From Halomonas sp. (GTDB lineage: Bacteria > Pseudomonadota > Gammaproteobacteria > Pseudomonadales > Halomonadaceae): DNA of 64,000 nucleotides. Made by a program: the position numbers and the translations under genes. Below, piece by piece: positions 8,843-56,134 of the stretch. Numbering within the stretch: the first letter of the stretch is position 1; each line of letters begins with the position of its first letter. Below the pieces are notes generated by a model, which saw only the letters and a program-made list of their open reading frames with translations, was not told the origin of the DNA and searched no databases. The stretch covers positions 90,043 to 154,042 of the forward strand of contig NZ_DRFS01000012.1 of assembly GCF_011050415.1 (NCBI RefSeq). The letters run 5' to 3'.

Positions 8843-9766
8843 ATGCATGTGTTAGTACTCGGCGCGGCAGCAGGCGGTGGATTTCCACAATGGAACTGCA
8901 ACTGTCCGAATTGCTACCACGCTCGCCAAGGCAGTAAAGATCATCCGCCATGTACACAGTCATCCATTGCGTTAAGCGTCGATGGCAAGCAGTGGTTGCT
9001 ATGTAACGCTTCACCCGATATTCGCGCCCAGCTAAACGCCAATTCAGAACTATGGCCAAGTAAGCTACGGGGCAGTGGGATAAGCGGCGTGCTGCTGGTA
9101 GATGCTCAAATTGATCACGTCACTGGGCTACTCTCGCTAAGAGAAGGCTGCCCTCTGGATGTATGGTGTACTCCCAATGTACATCGAGACCTCTCCACCG
9201 GCTTTCCGCTTTTCCCCATGCTGGATCACTGGGGTGGGTTACGCTGGCAGCCAATAGGCTTGGAAGGTGATCACGATGTCGACGAGTTTACGATCCCCTT
9301 TCTGCCGGATATCGCACTCACCGCTTTTGCGCTGCACAGCAACGCGCCGCCCTACTCACCACGGCGCGGTTCGCCCTCCTGTGGCGATAATTTAGGGTTG
9401 TATATCGTCGATCGTCGCAGCGGAAAGTCGCTCTGCTACGCCCCTGGGCTTGGTAACCCTACCCCACTGGCCATGCGCTTTTTAAACTCGGCCGATGTAG
9501 TGATGGTGGACGGCACCCTGTGGGAAGACGATGAGATGCAAGCGCTGGGCGTTGGCACCTCTACCGGTCAACAGATGGGCCACCTGGCGCTTAATGGCAG
9601 CGGTGGAATGCTCGAACTGCTTGATGAACTCCCCAGCACGACACGGCGTATGTTGATTCACATCAACAACACCAACCCGATTTTGGATCGCTCCAGCGAA
9701 CAGGCCAAAACGCTAAAGGCCGCTGGTATTGAAACCGCTTATGACGGTATGAAGTTTACGCTTTAG
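8843..9766 (+). CDS. pqqB: PQQ biosynthesis protein PqqB
   Basis: [24 protein letters not shown] is the PqqB N-terminus. Confidence 0.97.
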
Positions 9767-37046: not shown

Positions 37047-37098
37047 GTATTGCAACTTAAAAGCAGCATCCGAGGGCTCAGCCATAGGAACTGGCAAC

Positions 37099-37127
37099 GT
37101 GTACACATAACAGACAGCTGTGTACAC
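37099..37127. promoter_or_regulatory. Two palindromic octamers GTGTACAC-N13-GTGTACAC upstream of tetR
   Basis: Octamers at 37099-37106 and 37120-37127, 21 bp apart start to start. Confidence 0.7.
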
Positions 37128-37157
37128 TTTGCCATAAAATTCATAGGGACGAGCCTG

Positions 37158-37793
37158 ATGCCATCCACCGATACACCCGCTACCAAGGGCTCCCAAGACG
37201 TCTGGCTCGATGCGGCATTTGAGATGCTGCTCGAATCGGGCGTCGATAGCGTGCGTATTCTTCCCCTGGCCAAGCGGCTAAAGCTTTCTCGCACCAGCTT
37301 CTACTGGTTTTTCAAGGATCGTGAAGCGCTGTTGGAGGCACTGATCGCACGCTGGCGTGAAAAAAACACCCTGGGATTGGTGCAGCAGACCGAAGCCTAT
37401 GCCGAGAATATCATCGAGGCGATGCTCAATGTCTTCGACTGCTGGCTGAACTCCCAATTGTTCGACTCCCAACTAGAGTTCGCCATGCGCAGTTGGGCGC
37501 TACAATCAGCAGCGGTGGTGAGTGAAATCGAGGCTGCCGATGCCACCCGTATCGAAGCACTGGCGCGGATGTTCGAGCGATACGGCTATGATCCGCTGGC
37601 GGCCAACGTGCGTGGCCGCACTATCTACCTAACCCAGATTGGCTATATCTCGATGAACACCCAGGAAACACTCGAAGTGCGCATGCAGCGCATCCCGGCC
37701 TATGTCGAGATATTCACCGGCCAGCCGCCTGATTCAAGGGAGCTGCAACGCTTCCATGCTCATCATGAATATTCTCCAGCCGGAACCGACTAG
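37158..37793 (+). CDS. TetR-family transcriptional regulator
   Basis: N-terminal HTH (DAAFEMLLESGVDSVRILPLAKRLKLSRTSFYWFFKDREALLEAL). Confidence 0.9.
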   Translation: MPSTDTPATKGSQDVWLDAAFEMLLESGVDSVRILPLAKRLKLSRTSFYWFFKDREALLEALIARWREKNTLGLVQQTEAYAENIIEAMLNVFDCWLNSQLFDSQLEFAMRSWALQSAAVVSEIEAADATRIEALARMFERYGYDPLAANVRGRTIYLTQIGYISMNTQETLEVRMQRIPAYVEIFTGQPPDSRELQRFHAHHEYSPAGTD

Positions 37794-37867: not shown

Positions 37868-37919
37868 ATGTACATTGATGAACATTATATTGACAACAGT
37901 GAACATAGACGCCTAGATT
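37868..37919 (+). promoter_or_regulatory. Putative promoter/operator of the StcD-like gene
   Basis: RTGWACAY octamers at 37868, 37878 and 37899; TTGACA (37890-37895), 18-bp spacer, TAGATT (37914-37919). Confidence 0.6.
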
Positions 37920-37951
37920 TATCAAATACACAATAAAATGGCGTCCTGTCC

Positions 37952-39988
37952 ATGCTTAATGATCCGCTGCTGCAGCCCTTTCAGCTTAAACATTTGATCC
38001 TGAAAAACAGGCTGATGATGACATCCCACGAGCCTGCTTACCCTGAAGATGGGATGCCCAAGGCGCTCTATCGGGCTTACCACGTCGAACGCGCCAGGGC
38101 TGGTCTAGGCCTAACCATGACCGCCGGATCGGCGGCGGTGTCCAAGGATAGCCCACCCGTATTCAACAACATCATGGCCTACAAGGATGAAGTGGTGCCG
38201 TGGATGAAAGAGCTCACCGACGCCTGCCATGAGCACGGCACCGCGGTGATGATCCAACTGACCCACCTGGGCCGGCGCACCCGTTGGGACAAGGGCGACT
38301 GGCTGCCAGCAGTATCGCCATCTCATCGTCGCGAGGCCTCCCACCGCGCCTTTCCCAAGCAGGTCGAGGATTGGGATATTGAACGCCTGATCCGCGACTA
38401 CGCCGACGCCGCCGAGCGCATGCAAGCAGCTGGCCTGGATGGCATCGAGCTGCAGGCCTACGGCCATCTGATGGATCAGTTCTGGTCGCCGCTGACCAAC
38501 ACCCTCGAGGCGCCCTACGGTGGCGATCTCGACAACCGACTGCGCTTCACCTTCGATGTGCTGCGCGCCATTCGCCAGCGGGTTGGTGAGGCATTCATCG
38601 TCGGCGTGCGCTACACCGGCGACGAGATGCTGCCGGGTGGGCTGACTGCCGAAGAAGGCATGACGATCTCTCACCGTCTCAAGGACAGCGGCTTGGTCGA
38701 CTTCCTCAACGTGGTGCGTGGGCATATCGACACCGACGCGGGCCTCACCGATGTGATCCCCATCCAGGGCATGCCCAGCGCCCCGCACCTGGATTTCGCC
38801 GGCGAAATACGCCGCCAGGTCGACTTCCCCACTTTCCATGGCGCCAAGATTCAGGACGTGGCCACCGCCCGCCATGCCATCGCCTCGGGCAAGGTCGACA
38901 TGATTGGCATGACCCGCGCGCATATGGCCGACCCGCATATCGTGCGCAAGATTATCGAAGGTCGCGAAGAGGAGATTCGCCCCTGCGTCGGTGCCAACTA
39001 CTGCCTCGATCGCATCTATCAGGGCGGCGCCGCCTACTGCATTCACAACGCCGCCACTGGGCGCGAAACCAGCATGCCCCACAATATTCCCAAAGCGGTA
39101 CAGCGACGGCGGGTGGTGATCATCGGTGCAGGCCCGGCAGGGCTGGAAGCCGCCCGAGTCGCCGGCGAGCGGGGCCATCAGGTGGTAGTGATGGAGGCCG
39201 CCAGCGATGCCGGCGGGCAGGTGCGACTCACCGCCCAGAGTGAGCGACGTCGCGAGATGCTGGGCATCATCGACTGGCGCTTGGCACAGTGCGAAGCGCT
39301 GGGGGTCGAGATCCGCTACAACGTCTGGGCCGAAGCGGAGGAGGTACTCGCCGAAAAGCCCGATGTGGTGATCGTGGCCACCGGCGGCTACCCCATGGAA
39401 GACCAGCCTGCGGTGGGCTGCGAGCTGGTGGTCAACAGCTGGGACATCCTCTCCGGCCACGTGGCAGCAGGCAAGCGGGTGCTGCTATTCGACGATGCCG
39501 GCGACCATGCCGCCATGCAGGCAGCGGAAATCATCGCCGCCAGCGGCGCCGAGCTCGAGATAATGACCCCGGATCGCACCTTTTCGGCGGAGATCATGGC
39601 CATGAACCTGGTACCCTACATGCGTGCCCTGCAGCGCCCCAACGTCACCTTCACCCCTACCTACCGGCTGAAGTCCGTGGCACGCGATGGTGGCGAGCTA
39701 CTGGCCAAGATCACCAGCGACTACATGGACCTTGAGCACGAACGGCGCATCGATCAGGTGGTGGTCAACTACGGCATCACGCCAATGGCCGACATCTATT
39801 TCGAACTCAAACCGCACTCCAGCAACGGCGGAGAGGTGAACTACGATGACCTGATTGTGGGCGCCCCCCAGGGCGCGATTCGCAACCCGGATGGCCACTT
39901 CCAGCTGTTCCGGATCGGCGATGCCGTCGAGTCCCGCAACACCCACGCAGCCATCTACGACGCGCTCAGGTTGGTTAAGGACCTTTAA
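37952..39988 (+). CDS. FMN/FAD old-yellow-enzyme-family N-demethylase, StcD/HpbA-like
   Basis: OYE-like TIM barrel plus 4Fe-4S region (CVGANYCLDRIYQGGAAYCIHNAATGRE) and FAD domain (IIGAGPAGLEAARVAGERGH); paralogue of dgcA at 54062. Confidence 0.85.
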   Translation: MLNDPLLQPFQLKHLILKNRLMMTSHEPAYPEDGMPKALYRAYHVERARAGLGLTMTAGSAAVSKDSPPVFNNIMAYKDEVVPWMKELTDACHEHGTAVMIQLTHLGRRTRWDKGDWLPAVSPSHRREASHRAFPKQVEDWDIERLIRDYADAAERMQAAGLDGIELQAYGHLMDQFWSPLTNTLEAPYGGDLDNRLRFTFDVLRAIRQRVGEAFIVGVRYTGDEMLPGGLTAEEGMTISHRLKDSGLVDFLNVVRGHIDTDAGLTDVIPIQGMPSAPHLDFAGEIRRQVDFPTFHGAKIQDVATARHAIASGKVDMIGMTRAHMADPHIVRKIIEGREEEIRPCVGANYCLDRIYQGGAAYCIHNAATGRETSMPHNIPKAVQRRRVVIIGAGPAGLEAARVAGERGHQVVVMEAASDAGGQVRLTAQSERRREMLGIIDWRLAQCEALGVEIRYNVWAEAEEVLAEKPDVVIVATGGYPMEDQPAVGCELVVNSWDILSGHVAAGKRVLLFDDAGDHAAMQAAEIIAASGAELEIMTPDRTFSAEIMAMNLVPYMRALQRPNVTFTPTYRLKSVARDGGELLAKITSDYMDLEHERRIDQVVVNYGITPMADIYFELKPHSSNGGEVNYDDLIVGAPQGAIRNPDGHFQLFRIGDAVESRNTHAAIYDALRLVKDL

Positions 39989-50511: not shown

Positions 50512-51817
50512 TGCGCTTCTCCTGCTGCTGTTCCCGATATTGCTCGATCCGTGCCACCAGCGCGGCGAGGATATTACCGGCATCGCCAATCACTGCGAGA
50601 TCAGCCCGCTTGACCATATCGCAGCCAGGATCAAGATTGATCGCCACCACCTTGTCGCAGCGCTGAATACCCTGCAGGTGCTGAATGGCACCTGAAATAC
50701 CTACTGCCATATACACCCGGGCGGTCACCCAGGTACCCGTCGCCCCGACCTGACGATCACGGGCCATAAAGCCGTCGTCCACCGCGACACGCGACGCCCC
50801 TTCGGTAGCACCGAGCACTTTCGCGGCGTGGTGGAAGGCGTCCCACTGTTTAACGCCGTTGCCGCCGGAGAGGATAAACTCGGCCTCGGCCAGCGCTACC
50901 CCAGCGGGATCCACCGCCACCTGTCCCAGGTCTTCTATACGCGACAGTGTGGCAGGAATTGATGCCGACAGGGTCAGCTGTTCGGCTGCGTGACGCGTCT
51001 CATCCACCGGCTCGGCGCACTCGGCCAACGCCAGCGCAACCCGCGGCAGCGGGCGTTGAATATCCAGGCTACCGCCGCCACCACGAGCGGTACAGCGCCA
51101 GCCCATCGGCGCCTTATTGTCAGCCTCAATCTGCCATACGCCCGTGGCAGCTCGCTCGCCCAAGCGCACGGCCAGACGCCGCCCCAGATCAGCCCCGCCA
51201 AGGGGTGAGTCAGGCAGCAACCAGCAGCGCGGCGTCATCTCCCGCTCGACGGCGCTCAAAGCCGCCAGGCGCGCTTCAGGAGCAAACCCCGCGTAAAACT
51301 CATCATCAAAATGCACGACGCGATCAATGCCAGCTTCGCCCAGCGCTTGCTCCTTAAGCTCGCCGCCCCCCTCGCCCTTATACTCACCAAACAGGATCGC
51401 CACCACGGCGCCAGGACGTTCGACGTCGGCATCTGCCACACGCCGGGCCAGCCCCAGCAGATCCTTGTCATGAGAGGAGAGACGCCCGCCAGTCATATCG
51501 GGCACCACGGCCACCAGGAAAGCAGGTTGATCAATCACTACCGTGCGACGGCTATCGCGAGCCGCCGTGGTTGTCGCAGTGGGCTGCCCGCCTTGCTGGA
51601 GGCCACTGCGGTCAATTCGCTTGATGCCATTGGGGCCAATAAAGCCAATGGCGCGAGGGTTCCTGCGCACCACGCCGTTAGGTCCCAGCCATTCGCTGAT
51701 GGCAACAGCGCCGCCCCCGTTTCCACCAAGGGCGGCGATCACTCTGGCGTGCTCGGGGTGCAGGCGGTTGCGGGCAATCCACTCGCGACGCGGGTCGCGA
51801 CGAATAGTCTCACTCAT
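50501..51817 (-). CDS. etfA: Electron transfer flavoprotein alpha subunit
   Basis: C-terminal FAD domain (QVGATGTWVTARVYMAVGISGAIQHLQGIQ; INLDPGCDMVKRADLAVIGD). Confidence 0.93.
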   Translation of the reverse strand: MSETIRRDPRREWIARNRLHPEHARVIAALGGNGGGAVAISEWLGPNGVVRRNPRAIGFIGPNGIKRIDRSGLQQGGQPTATTTAARDSRRTVVIDQPAFLVAVVPDMTGGRLSSHDKDLLGLARRVADADVERPGAVVAILFGEYKGEGGGELKEQALGEAGIDRVVHFDDEFYAGFAPEARLAALSAVEREMTPRCWLLPDSPLGGADLGRRLAVRLGERAATGVWQIEADNKAPMGWRCTARGGGGSLDIQRPLPRVALALAECAEPVDETRHAAEQLTLSASIPATLSRIEDLGQVAVDPAGVALAEAEFILSGGNGVKQWDAFHHAAKVLGATEGASRVAVDDGFMARDRQVGATGTWVTARVYMAVGISGAIQHLQGIQRCDKVVAINLDPGCDMVKRADLAVIGDAGNILAALVARIEQYREQQQEKRNAA

Positions 51818-53856
51818 ACGATCACCTCCTCAGCAGTCGTTGTTGCAGCGGGCCTGCGGGATTCGCCAGATGCATTACCCACGGGGCACTCTACCAGAGC
51901 ATCCGCCACCAGCTCGGCGATATCGCGCACCTTGGCGCTGGCATCCACCACGCCTTCCAGCATGGCAGTGCACTGCGGACAGCCAACCGCGACCAGCTCG
52001 GCGCCGCTTTCCTTAACGTCATTCATGCGCATATCGGGAATTCTGCGCTCGCCGGGAATATCGGTAATCGGTGCCCCACCGCCACCACCGCAGCAGCGTG
52101 AGCGGAAACCGGAGCGCTCCATCTCCTTGACCTCTATGCCCAGCGCCTTCAGCACTCGCCGCGGTGCCTCGTATTCGCCGTTGTAGCGGCCCAGGTAACA
52201 GGGGTCGTGATAGGTGACGCTGCCGCCTTTCCAAGGGGCAAAGGTCAGCCGACCGGCGTCATACAGTTCGGCAATAAAGGTGCTGTGGTGGCGCACCTTG
52301 TAGTTGGCATTGAAATCGGGGCCGCCCTGCCCTTCTTGAAGAAAGTCGCCGTACTCATTGCTCAGCACATGAAAGCTGTGGGGGTCGCAGGTAACAATCT
52401 GCAGAAAACGATACTTGGCCAGGGTAGCAATATTGCGCTTCGCCAGAGACTGGAACGTCGCTTCATCGCCCAGGCGCCGCGCCACATCGCCACTGTCTCG
52501 CTCTTCATTCCCTAACACAGCAAAGTCTACCTCGGCGGCTCGCAGCACTTTAACTAGCGCCCGCAGAGTGCGCTGGTTACGCATATCAAAGGCGCCATCC
52601 CCCAGCCATAGCAACACGTCGACCTGCTTAAGATCTGCCATGAGCGGTAGGTTAAGATCCGCCGCCCAGTTGAGCCGCGAGCCAGGATCGAAACCACCGG
52701 GGTTGTCGGTGGCGATCAGATTGTCGAGCACTTCGGCGCCTTTGTTGGGCGTTTTACCGCGCTCAAGCGTCAGGTGGCGGCGCATATCGACAATCGCATC
52801 CACGTGCTCGATCATCATCGGGCACTCTTCGACACAGGCGCGGCAGGTGGTACAGGACCATAGGGTCTCGGCGTCGACCAAGGTTTTCCCTTCCAGAGCC
52901 ACAATAGGCCCATGGGGCGAGCCAGCGTGTTCACCTACTGGCTTACCGGGGTAGGGTGAACCGGCATAAGCAGCATCACTGCCCCCGGCCATGCCCACTA
53001 CCATATCCTGGATTAGCTTCTTGGGGTTGAGCGGCTGACCGGCGGCAAAGGCCGGGCACACCGCCTCGCAGCGGCCGCACTGCACACAGGCATCAAAGCC
53101 CAGCAGCTGGTTCCAGGTAAAGTCAGCGGGCTTTTCCACGCCCAGGGGAGCCGTCTCATCCTCCAGATTCAGTGCCTTGAGGCCCGTTGAGCGGCCAGTG
53201 CCGCCTTTTTTCGTTGAGAAGCGCTCGGCGCGGCGATGGAAAGCCAGATGCAAGGCACCGGCGAAGGCGTGCTTCATGGGCCCGCCCCAGGTCATGCCAA
53301 AAAACATTTCCCCCAGGCCCCAGGCCACAACCCCCGCCAGCACCAGCGCCAGGAGCCAGCCACCACTGCCTTCAAGCAAACCTTCGGGCAGCAGACCCAC
53401 CGTGGGCAGGGTGATCAGGAAAACGCCTAGCGAAAACGCCATCAAACTCTTCGGCAGGCGCATCCATGGGCCCTTGGAGAGCCTAGCGGGCGGATTAATG
53501 CGGCGGCGCGCCACGAAGAGGCTGCCGACAAACATGGAGGCGCTAGCCAGTAGCAACAATCCGCCTAACAATGGGTTAGCGATACCAAGGCCATGCACCA
53601 AAATCATCAGCATGGCGGCTGCCACGAAGCCACCGGCGGTGGCCACGTGGGTGTTGGAGATCATTTTGTCACGCCCCACTACATGGTGCAGATCCACCAA
53701 ATAGCGGCGCGGCAGTGCCACCAGCCCCTTCAGCAGGTTAACCCGCGAGGGCCGCCCCTGGCGCCACAGGCGTATACGGCGTACAGCGCCGATTACCGCC
53801 AGGGCCAAAGCGGTGAAAATCAGTATCGGCAAGAGCGTTTCGAGCATAGTGCTCAC
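51814..53856 (-). CDS. dgcB: DgcB-type membrane Fe-S protein of dimethylglycine demethylation
   Basis: N-terminal TM segment, two CxxCxxCxxxCP ferredoxin motifs, C-terminal CCG domain (CCGGGGGA). Confidence 0.9.
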   Translation of the reverse strand: MSTMLETLLPILIFTALALAVIGAVRRIRLWRQGRPSRVNLLKGLVALPRRYLVDLHHVVGRDKMISNTHVATAGGFVAAAMLMILVHGLGIANPLLGGLLLLASASMFVGSLFVARRRINPPARLSKGPWMRLPKSLMAFSLGVFLITLPTVGLLPEGLLEGSGGWLLALVLAGVVAWGLGEMFFGMTWGGPMKHAFAGALHLAFHRRAERFSTKKGGTGRSTGLKALNLEDETAPLGVEKPADFTWNQLLGFDACVQCGRCEAVCPAFAAGQPLNPKKLIQDMVVGMAGGSDAAYAGSPYPGKPVGEHAGSPHGPIVALEGKTLVDAETLWSCTTCRACVEECPMMIEHVDAIVDMRRHLTLERGKTPNKGAEVLDNLIATDNPGGFDPGSRLNWAADLNLPLMADLKQVDVLLWLGDGAFDMRNQRTLRALVKVLRAAEVDFAVLGNEERDSGDVARRLGDEATFQSLAKRNIATLAKYRFLQIVTCDPHSFHVLSNEYGDFLQEGQGGPDFNANYKVRHHSTFIAELYDAGRLTFAPWKGGSVTYHDPCYLGRYNGEYEAPRRVLKALGIEVKEMERSGFRSRCCGGGGGAPITDIPGERRIPDMRMNDVKESGAELVAVGCPQCTAMLEGVVDASAKVRDIAELVADALVECPVGNASGESRRPAATTTAEEVIV

Positions 53857-54061: not shown

Positions 54062-56134
54062 TCAAAAGTCCTTGCAGATTCGCAAAGCATCGTAGATGGC
54101 CGCATGGGTGTTGCGCGGTGCCGTGCAGTCGCCCAGACGGAAGAGCAGGAAGCCATCTCCTTCTTCGTTCAGGCTCGGCTGAGGCTGAATGGCGTAGAGC
54201 GCCTCCAGATCCACCTGCCCTTTATTGCGGGACTGCTCTTTGAGGGCGTAGTAAAGCGCCTCATCAGGGCGTACGCCGTTCTCGACCACGACCTGATCCA
54301 CCACACGCTCTTCCAAAGCACCGGTGTACTCATTTTCAAGCACCGCCACTAGGCCATCGCCCTCGCGGTAAACCTTATGCAGCATCAGGTCGGAGGACAT
54401 GATCACCTCCTTCTCGTAGAGGCTGCGGTAGTAGGTGGGGAAGGTGGTGCCGCCCACCGCCGCGCCGGGCTTGATATCGTCGGTGACGATCTCTACCTTG
54501 GCGCCCTTGTCGGCGAGAAAATCCGCCGCCGAGACGCCGGAGAATTCGCAGATGGCGTCATAAATCAACACGTTTTTACCTGGCGCCACTTTGCCTGAGA
54601 GAATATCCCAGGTGCTGACCACCAGGCTCTCCTCGGTATTCTCCGAGTAGCCCCACTCGGGGTGCTGGCTAAGGAAGGGCTGGCCACCGGTAGCAAGCAC
54701 CACGATATCCGGGCGCAGATCGAGCAGCGTTTCCTCATCGGCGCGAGTACCCAGACGCAGATCGACTTTAAGACGCGCCAGCTCCAGCTGGTACCAGCGG
54801 GTGATACCGGCGATCTGATCACGCTGGGGCGCTTGGGCGGCAATCGTGATCTGTCCGCCCAAGGCGTCAGCAGCCTCAAACAGAGTGACATCGTGACCGC
54901 GCTCGGCGGCTACCCGCGCTGCCTCCATACCGCCGGGGCCACCGCCTACTACGACGACTTTGCGTTTGGCGCCTTCGGTCTTCTCGATGATATGCGGCAG
55001 CCCCATGTACTCCCGTGACGTCGCGGCGTTTTGAATACACAGCACGTCCAGACCCTGGTACTGGCGGTCGATGCAGTAGTTAGCGCCCACGCACTGCTTG
55101 ATCTGATCGATCTGGCCCATCTTGATCTTGGCGATCAGGTGAGGGTCGGCAATATGTGCCCGGGTCATGCCCACCAAGTCTACGTAGCCCCCTTCGAGGA
55201 TACGCTGGGCCTGATTGGGATCCTTAATGTTCTGGGCGTGGATCACCGGTACGTTCACCACTTCCTTGATCCCCGCCGCCAAGTGTAGGAAAGGCTCCGG
55301 CGGGTAAGACATATTAGGGATAACGTTGGCGAGGGTGTTGTGAGTGTCGCAGCCAGAACCGATAACGCCGAAGAAATCCACCATGCCGGTGGCATCGTAG
55401 TAGGCGGCGATCTGCTTCATATCATCGTGAGAAAGACCATCCGGGTGGAACTCGTCACCGCAAATGCGCATGCCGACGCAGAAGTCGTCGCCCACTTCAG
55501 CACGTACGGCTTTAAGCACTTCCATACCGAAGCGCATACGGTTCTCGAAGCTGCCGCCCCACTCGTCCTCACGCTTGTTGACCCGTGGGCTCCAGAACTG
55601 ATCGATCAAATGCTGGTGCACGGCAGAGAGCTCAACACCGTCGAGGCCCCCTTCCTTTGCCCGGCGAGCGGCCTGGGCAAAGTCGCCGACAATACGCCAG
55701 ATCTCTTCTTCCTCAATGGTCTTACAGGTCGAGCGGTGCACCGGCTCACGGATACCGGAGGGTGATACCAGGGTCGACCAGTCGAAACCGTCCCAGCGGG
55801 AGCGGCGCCCCATATGGGTAATCTGGATCATGATCTTGCCGCCATGCTTATGCACGGCATCGGCCAAATTCTGAAAGTGTGGAATAATGCGATCAGTAGA
55901 CAGGTTTACTGAGCTCCACCAGCCCTGAGGGCTATCGATGGAAACCACCGAAGAGCCACCACAGATACATAGCCCACAGCCGCCCTTAGACTTCTCTTCG
56001 TAATACCTAACGTAGCGCTCAGTGGTCATGCCTCCGTCAGTGGCATGCACCTCAGCGTGAGCGGTACTGACCACACGATTGCGGATGGTCAATTTGCCAA
56101 TCTGTATCGGCTCGAAAATTGCGTCGAATGCCAT
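54062..56134 (-). CDS. dgcA: Dimethylglycine demethylase subunit DgcA
   Basis: 690 aa OYE-like + 4Fe-4S (CVGANYCIDRQYQGLDVLCIQNAATSRE) + FAD domain; next to dgcB/etf and gbdR. Confidence 0.92.
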   Translation of the reverse strand: MAFDAIFEPIQIGKLTIRNRVVSTAHAEVHATDGGMTTERYVRYYEEKSKGGCGLCICGGSSVVSIDSPQGWWSSVNLSTDRIIPHFQNLADAVHKHGGKIMIQITHMGRRSRWDGFDWSTLVSPSGIREPVHRSTCKTIEEEEIWRIVGDFAQAARRAKEGGLDGVELSAVHQHLIDQFWSPRVNKREDEWGGSFENRMRFGMEVLKAVRAEVGDDFCVGMRICGDEFHPDGLSHDDMKQIAAYYDATGMVDFFGVIGSGCDTHNTLANVIPNMSYPPEPFLHLAAGIKEVVNVPVIHAQNIKDPNQAQRILEGGYVDLVGMTRAHIADPHLIAKIKMGQIDQIKQCVGANYCIDRQYQGLDVLCIQNAATSREYMGLPHIIEKTEGAKRKVVVVGGGPGGMEAARVAAERGHDVTLFEAADALGGQITIAAQAPQRDQIAGITRWYQLELARLKVDLRLGTRADEETLLDLRPDIVVLATGGQPFLSQHPEWGYSENTEESLVVSTWDILSGKVAPGKNVLIYDAICEFSGVSAADFLADKGAKVEIVTDDIKPGAAVGGTTFPTYYRSLYEKEVIMSSDLMLHKVYREGDGLVAVLENEYTGALEERVVDQVVVENGVRPDEALYYALKEQSRNKGQVDLEALYAIQPQPSLNEEGDGFLLFRLGDCTAPRNTHAAIYDALRICKDF

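Follow-up and report, generated by a model that had tools for sequence, protein, structure and literature searches.

A predicted TetR operator array at the promoter of an stcD-like N-demethylase gene in Halomonas sp. and its relatives

Background

The promoter of an stcD-like gene in Halomonas sp. is overlaid by several near-identical octamers, which also occur upstream of a neighbouring tetR gene, and this raises the question of which protein reads the repeats, with what effect on transcription, and in response to which compound. The locus was analysed within a stretch of 64,000 nucleotides (hereafter the window), in the 4.7-Mb genome to which it belongs, and in related genomes. In the reading that we favour, with a probability of roughly 0.85, a dedicated TetR repressor would bind its own promoter and that of stcD, occlude RNA polymerase, and be released by an N-methylated proline. 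The locus would provide a candidate pair of specific operator and regulator for the use of proline betaine and N-methylproline, a trait linked in halophiles with osmoprotection and in Sinorhizobium with the colonisation of legume roots. The operator definition is clean and extends to S. meliloti, and the pair would constitute a ready-made biosensor if the ligand were confirmed.

Results and discussion

Hexamer arrays at the stcD and tetR promoters

Three octamers were read directly over the stcD promoter (ATGTACAT, 37868-37875; ATGAACAT, 37878-37885; GTGAACAT, 37899-37906), the last two separated by 13 bp (37886-37898), and an identical octamer-N13-octamer arrangement, GTGTACAC-N13-GTGTACAC, was found upstream of tetR (Table 1), in agreement with the first-pass annotation. 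The pattern RTGWACAY-N13-RTGWACAY was matched three times in the window (one palindromic site being counted twice), compared to 0.01 matches in dinucleotide shuffles. The pair as annotated is therefore exact and far above chance, but its gap is not empty: it contains GACA at an equal position in both promoters (CAGACA at 37111 and TTGACA at 37890). The core common to the two promoters reads TGWACA-N5-nnGACA-N4-TGWACA (TGTACA-cataa-CAGACA-gctg-TGTACA for tetR and TGAACA-ttata-TTGACA-acag-TGAACA for stcD), and stcD has one extra hexamer 5' of the core relative to tetR, giving a symmetric array with steps of 10, 11 and 10 bp. The natural unit has 16 bp and is a pseudo-palindrome, TGTACA-N4-TGTCAA (or TGAACA), made of hexamers 10 bp apart, rather than two octamers at a distance of 21 bp.

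Table 1. Predicted regulatory features and genes of the tetR-stcD locus (window coordinates)
Feature	Position	Strand	Basis
TetR operator (predicted) at tetR promoter, TGTACA-N5-CAGACA-N4-TGTACA within the octamer-N13-octamer pair	37099..37127	+	
16-bp unit, TGTACA-N4-TGTCTG; proposed footprint of one TetR dimer	37111..37126	-	
Possible tetR -10, TAAAAT, 18 bp past CAGACA; weak, unconserved in relatives	37135..37140	+	
tetR, TetR-family regulator, 211 aa, ATG start	37158..37793	+	
stcD operator array (predicted): TGTACA 37869, TGAACA 37879, TTGACA 37890, TGAACA 37900	37868..37906	+	sequence, conservation
16-bp unit A, TGTACA-N4-TGAACA	37869..37884	+	matrix
16-bp unit B, TGTTCA-N4-TGTCAA	37890..37905	-	top matrix match in 64-kb window, 17.2 bits
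Predicted sigma-70 promoter of stcD: TTGACA, 18 bp, TAGATT	37890..37919	+	promoter prediction, conservation
stcD/hpbA-like gene, 678 aa, predicted N-methylproline demethylase, OYE/FMN + NAD(FAD) oxidoreductase	37952..39988	+	

The interleaving of TTGACA (37890-37895) and TAGATT (37914-37919) with the octamers was likewise borne out: the predicted -35 of stcD belongs to unit B, the third octamer sits in the -35/-10 spacer, and the outermost hexamer (37869) lies 5' of the -35. Among 16 close stcD orthologues, which include that of the window and whose alignment columns are non-independent, the 24 columns of the four hexamers were 99% conserved, relative to 71% for the other intergenic columns. 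The stcD -10 was followed by a conserved leader, which reads TTTRTYAAATACACAAYAAAATGG (window 37914-37945) among close relatives; many other Halomonadaceae have TTGTCAAgNACACAACAAgA at that place. This leader contains a TGTCAA about 20 bp past the last hexamer, perhaps an extra half-site or an mRNA feature.

The tetR promoter repeats the stcD geometry in this genome (CAGACA-18-TAAAAT), and its CAGACA may double as a -35 element. In 42 tetR upstream regions, the GACA and hexamer columns held 1.2-2.0 bits each, compared to mostly ≤0.6 bits outside them. The list of open reading frames starts tetR at a TTG (37050-37793). The ATG at 37158 was preferred, because orthologues begin there and because a frame from the TTG would take in the operator. 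The product carries a TetR_N domain (Pfam PF00440, E 1.9e-10), and its structure model (pLDDT 91) was all-helical, with TetR-family structures, including a QacR-DNA complex, as fold matches at about 12-21% identity. The structure search with this model returned generic TetR relatives only and no clue to the ligand, and there was no close solved relative, the best sequence match (8e-8) extending over the helix-turn-helix. The recognition-helix region R45-W50 was invariant in 39 TetRs sharing the site.

Conservation beyond halomonads

All 90 stcD upstream regions inspected (from Halomonadaceae, Rhizobiales, Paracoccus and Pseudomonas, and including Sinorhizobium meliloti stcD and Paracoccus hpbA) carried the elements, which numbered 210 compared to 16±4 in shuffles; kinship of the sequences makes such counts overstate independence. 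Element spacings at stcD were 31, 21, 10, 52 and 53 bp, and 151 of 157 pairwise distances (non-independent events) fell at most 1 bp from a multiple of 10.5, so that the predicted elements are nearly always at whole-helical-turn spacing (10, 21, 31, 52). Outside the halomonads, where the relatives are mostly alphaproteobacterial, GTC stood at exactly +11 in 80 of about 84 TGTACA elements, from which the unit TGTACA-N4-TGTCAA was derived. A matrix trained solely on these non-halomonad stcD promoters and then run over the window ranked 37905(-), 37126(-) and 37884(-) first to third and 37869(+) fifth, the tetR site thus being the second-best match; the sole intruder among the top five was a coding-sequence match at 8951. 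By this comparison the TetR and its putative site are conserved from salt-loving to root-nodule bacteria.

In S. meliloti AK57 pSymA (L161 6807-8842), the operator was kept at a tetR-proC-ABC transporter locus, and the stcD of this strain aligned in three pieces and looks broken; in S. meliloti RRI128 the stcD of the locus was intact and encoded 678 aa. In one relative (G073, L070), stcD, gbcA, glyA and soxA all aligned in pieces, which suggests sequencing errors and not true pseudogenes.

Specificity within the genome and the genus

Perfect matches to RTGWACAY-N13-RTGWACAY occurred at two places only in the 4.7-Mb genome, the tetR and stcD promoters. Elsewhere in the genome, N13 pairs with one mismatch were rare and those with two were numerous; of these pairs, the single one examined in full, on contig C4, had no array. 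Lone octamers at other places in the window, such as 8950 and 9177, also had no array, and the two that were read lay in coding sequence. Two further exact matches to the 16-bp unit in the genome (contigs C8 and C20; one in a coding frame, one beside an unrelated gene) lacked a second unit and a relevant gene, and their number was about that expected by chance. The pattern TGTACA-N4-TGWMAA had no match in the Halomonas sp. genome, since TGAACA falls outside it.

Scanning 82 genus genomes with the core pattern gave 32 occurrences: one was stray, and the other 31 lay at the promoter of tetR or of stcD in genomes that have the TetR. The reversed core pattern, used as a control, gave 0 matches. 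At ≥75% identity, 22 of the 82 genomes had tetR, and exactly these 22 had stcD; they are related by descent. The elements also followed stcD when its surroundings changed. In stcD-tetR operons (gap 21-56 bp) they stood before stcD, with none between the genes; an intervening gene of about 0.8-1 kb between tetR and stcD left the array with stcD; and in four TetR genomes without stcD within 8 kb, stcD was located elsewhere with the full array present. A second TetR type, with stcD divergent from tetR, was found in five genus members. Genome G101 has a type-1 TetR, and its type-2 stcD, on another contig, keeps the operator; a type-2 TetR was not found in that genome. On contig 33 of G101 (L048 1000-1300, reverse complement), where the type-2 stcD keeps this operator, only an apparent remnant of the tetR start was seen. 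As far as these arrangements indicate, the site tracks the promoter and not the gene boundary. Comparison between genomes also shows that the sites exist, that they are conserved and regularly spaced, and that they go with this TetR. The predicted TetR operators and the predicted small regulon of the first-pass annotation, comprising tetR and the N-demethylase gene, were strongly supported by the co-occurrence, by the near-perfect agreement of site and TetR presence in the genus scan, and by the array kept at unlinked stcD genes.

The StcD enzyme and its candidate ligand

StcD of the window was 72% identical to both S. meliloti StcD and Paracoccus HpbA, the latter annotated as an N-methyl-L-proline N-demethylase; S. 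meliloti StcD has been described as an N-methylproline demethylase with a role in stachydrine catabolism (PMC12239276). In the second-type loci read in detail, tetR was followed by proC in four of four, with putP next in two of these, and proC often adjoins stcD in Rhizobiales. Because of the 72% identity and these proC and putP neighbours, the evidence points to StcD as a predicted N-methylproline demethylase that would convert N-methylproline to proline. GbcA, a glycine-betaine enzyme, was the sole Rieske oxygenase relative above 30% in the genome (GbcA/Stc2-type), and no dedicated stachydrine demethylase was found there besides it. The ends of two contigs of the genome, C8 and C32 (bases 77-706), gave near-equal 30% matches to GbcA, possibly from one repeated or split Rieske-oxygenase gene. 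The first step of proline betaine use would need an Stc2-type oxygenase, so either GbcA performs it or N-methylproline is imported directly. With only one GbcA/Stc2-type oxygenase, N-methylproline is the safer guess for the inducer, and proline betaine would be a plausible one in view of the StcD/HpbA orthologue and of proC and putP in relatives.

With the operators unchanged, the enzyme and inducer could instead concern another N-methylated compound, such as dimethylglycine (DMG), sarcosine, N-methyl-hydroxyproline or another N-methyl amino acid. This is compatible with the single Rieske oxygenase and with the genus-wide tendency of tetR-stcD to lie next to gbcAB and sarcosine oxidase genes, but we consider it unlikely, as the proC and putP neighbours suggest proline and StcD was only 43% identical to DgcA (54.1-56.1 kb of the window). 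DMG is an unlikely inducer for the further reason that the window encodes a separate DgcA/DgcB pair (51.8-56.1 kb; DgcA 54062-56134, DgcB 51814-53856, with electron-transfer genes) and that the upstream regions of dgcA paralogues in relatives carried no array. stcD has no dgcB beside it and did not classify as dgcA, whether by that neighbour or by orthology.

Proposed mechanism

Returning to the favoured reading of a local repressor released by an N-methylated proline, we infer its binding, dimer arrangement, repression and ligand as follows. The TetR encoded between gbcA and stcD would bind TGTACA-type hexamer arrays along one face of the DNA, most likely with one dimer per 16-bp unit (TGTACA-N4-TGTCAA or TGTACA-N4-TGAACA), an arrangement deduced from spacing alone. 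The stcD promoter would offer two facing units, and the tetR promoter one unit and one lone TGTACA hexamer. QacR, a member of the same family, binds as cooperative paired dimers. The overlap of the site with the predicted -35 and with the spacer that separates it from the -10 makes promoter occlusion the natural mechanism: TetR on the -35 and spacer hexamers would exclude RNA polymerase, most likely through one or two dimers, until N-methylproline, or possibly its precursor proline betaine, released it.

Repression is the usual mode of the TetR family, and a few members activate. At stcD the outermost hexamer, upstream of the -35, is in a position open to activators, so that the bound TetR might be an activator or a mixed regulator; the overlap of the core elements with the -35 and spacer, and the presence of the same core at the presumably autoregulated tetR promoter, make this quite improbable. 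Ownership of the octamers by another regulator of the island, with the neighbouring TetR incidental, has a still smaller chance. The AraC-type GbdR, which controls glycine-betaine catabolism in Pseudomonas, is encoded in the same window (58.1-59.2 kb), but we rejected it as owner of the sites, as these were confined to TetR-bearing genomes of the genus, the one stray aside, with dgcA paralogues common in genomes without the TetR; tetR's own promoter carries a site; and the gbcA, gbcB and dgcA promoters of the window have no array. That an AT-rich word recurred by chance and was picked out post hoc, for which the mild enrichment of the lone RTGWACAY in the window (22 vs 9.7 expected) might speak, is contradicted by the two genomic places, the shuffles, the genus scan and the cross-family conservation, and has a probability next to nil.

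Comparison with known systems

No description of a TetR regulator or operator of stcD/hpbA was found in the literature searched, which did not extend to the earlier primary papers on proline betaine and stachydrine; the TetR/operator circuit of stcD is apparently undescribed so far, while the kind of circuit, a local repressor, is well known. The S. meliloti stcD and Paracoccus hpbA loci resemble the present one in their orthologous demethylases and in a TetR-family gene (66% and 52% identity to the TetR of the window, respectively), and have the same TGTACA/TGAACA-TTGACA elements, there placed in a shared intergenic region. They differ in that tetR is divergent from stcD, while here the two genes follow each other in tandem next to gbcA, each with its own promoter, and in element spacing (about 52, compared to 10/21/31 here). 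The Halomonas sp. genome also has no dedicated Stc2 oxygenase. A cross-family regulon is a tentative extension, which we would put below even odds: one 'StcR'-like TetR subfamily, sensing N-methylproline or proline betaine, would control stcD/hpbA in rhizobia, among them S. meliloti, as well as in halophiles, via helically phased TGTACA arrays, and in Halomonas-like hosts GbcA would carry out the first demethylation of proline betaine, leaving only the second step under TetR control.

DgcA/DgcB under GbdR offers a second parallel, as a homologous flavoenzyme in the same island, but dgcA is without an operator array and its regulator belongs to another family. With TetR and QacR as local autoregulated repressors, the present system shares, here at the level of sequence, the TetR_N domain and fold and, at two adjacent promoters, paired sites of pseudo-palindromic form; unlike them, it has arrays of several elements in helical phase, whose length varies.
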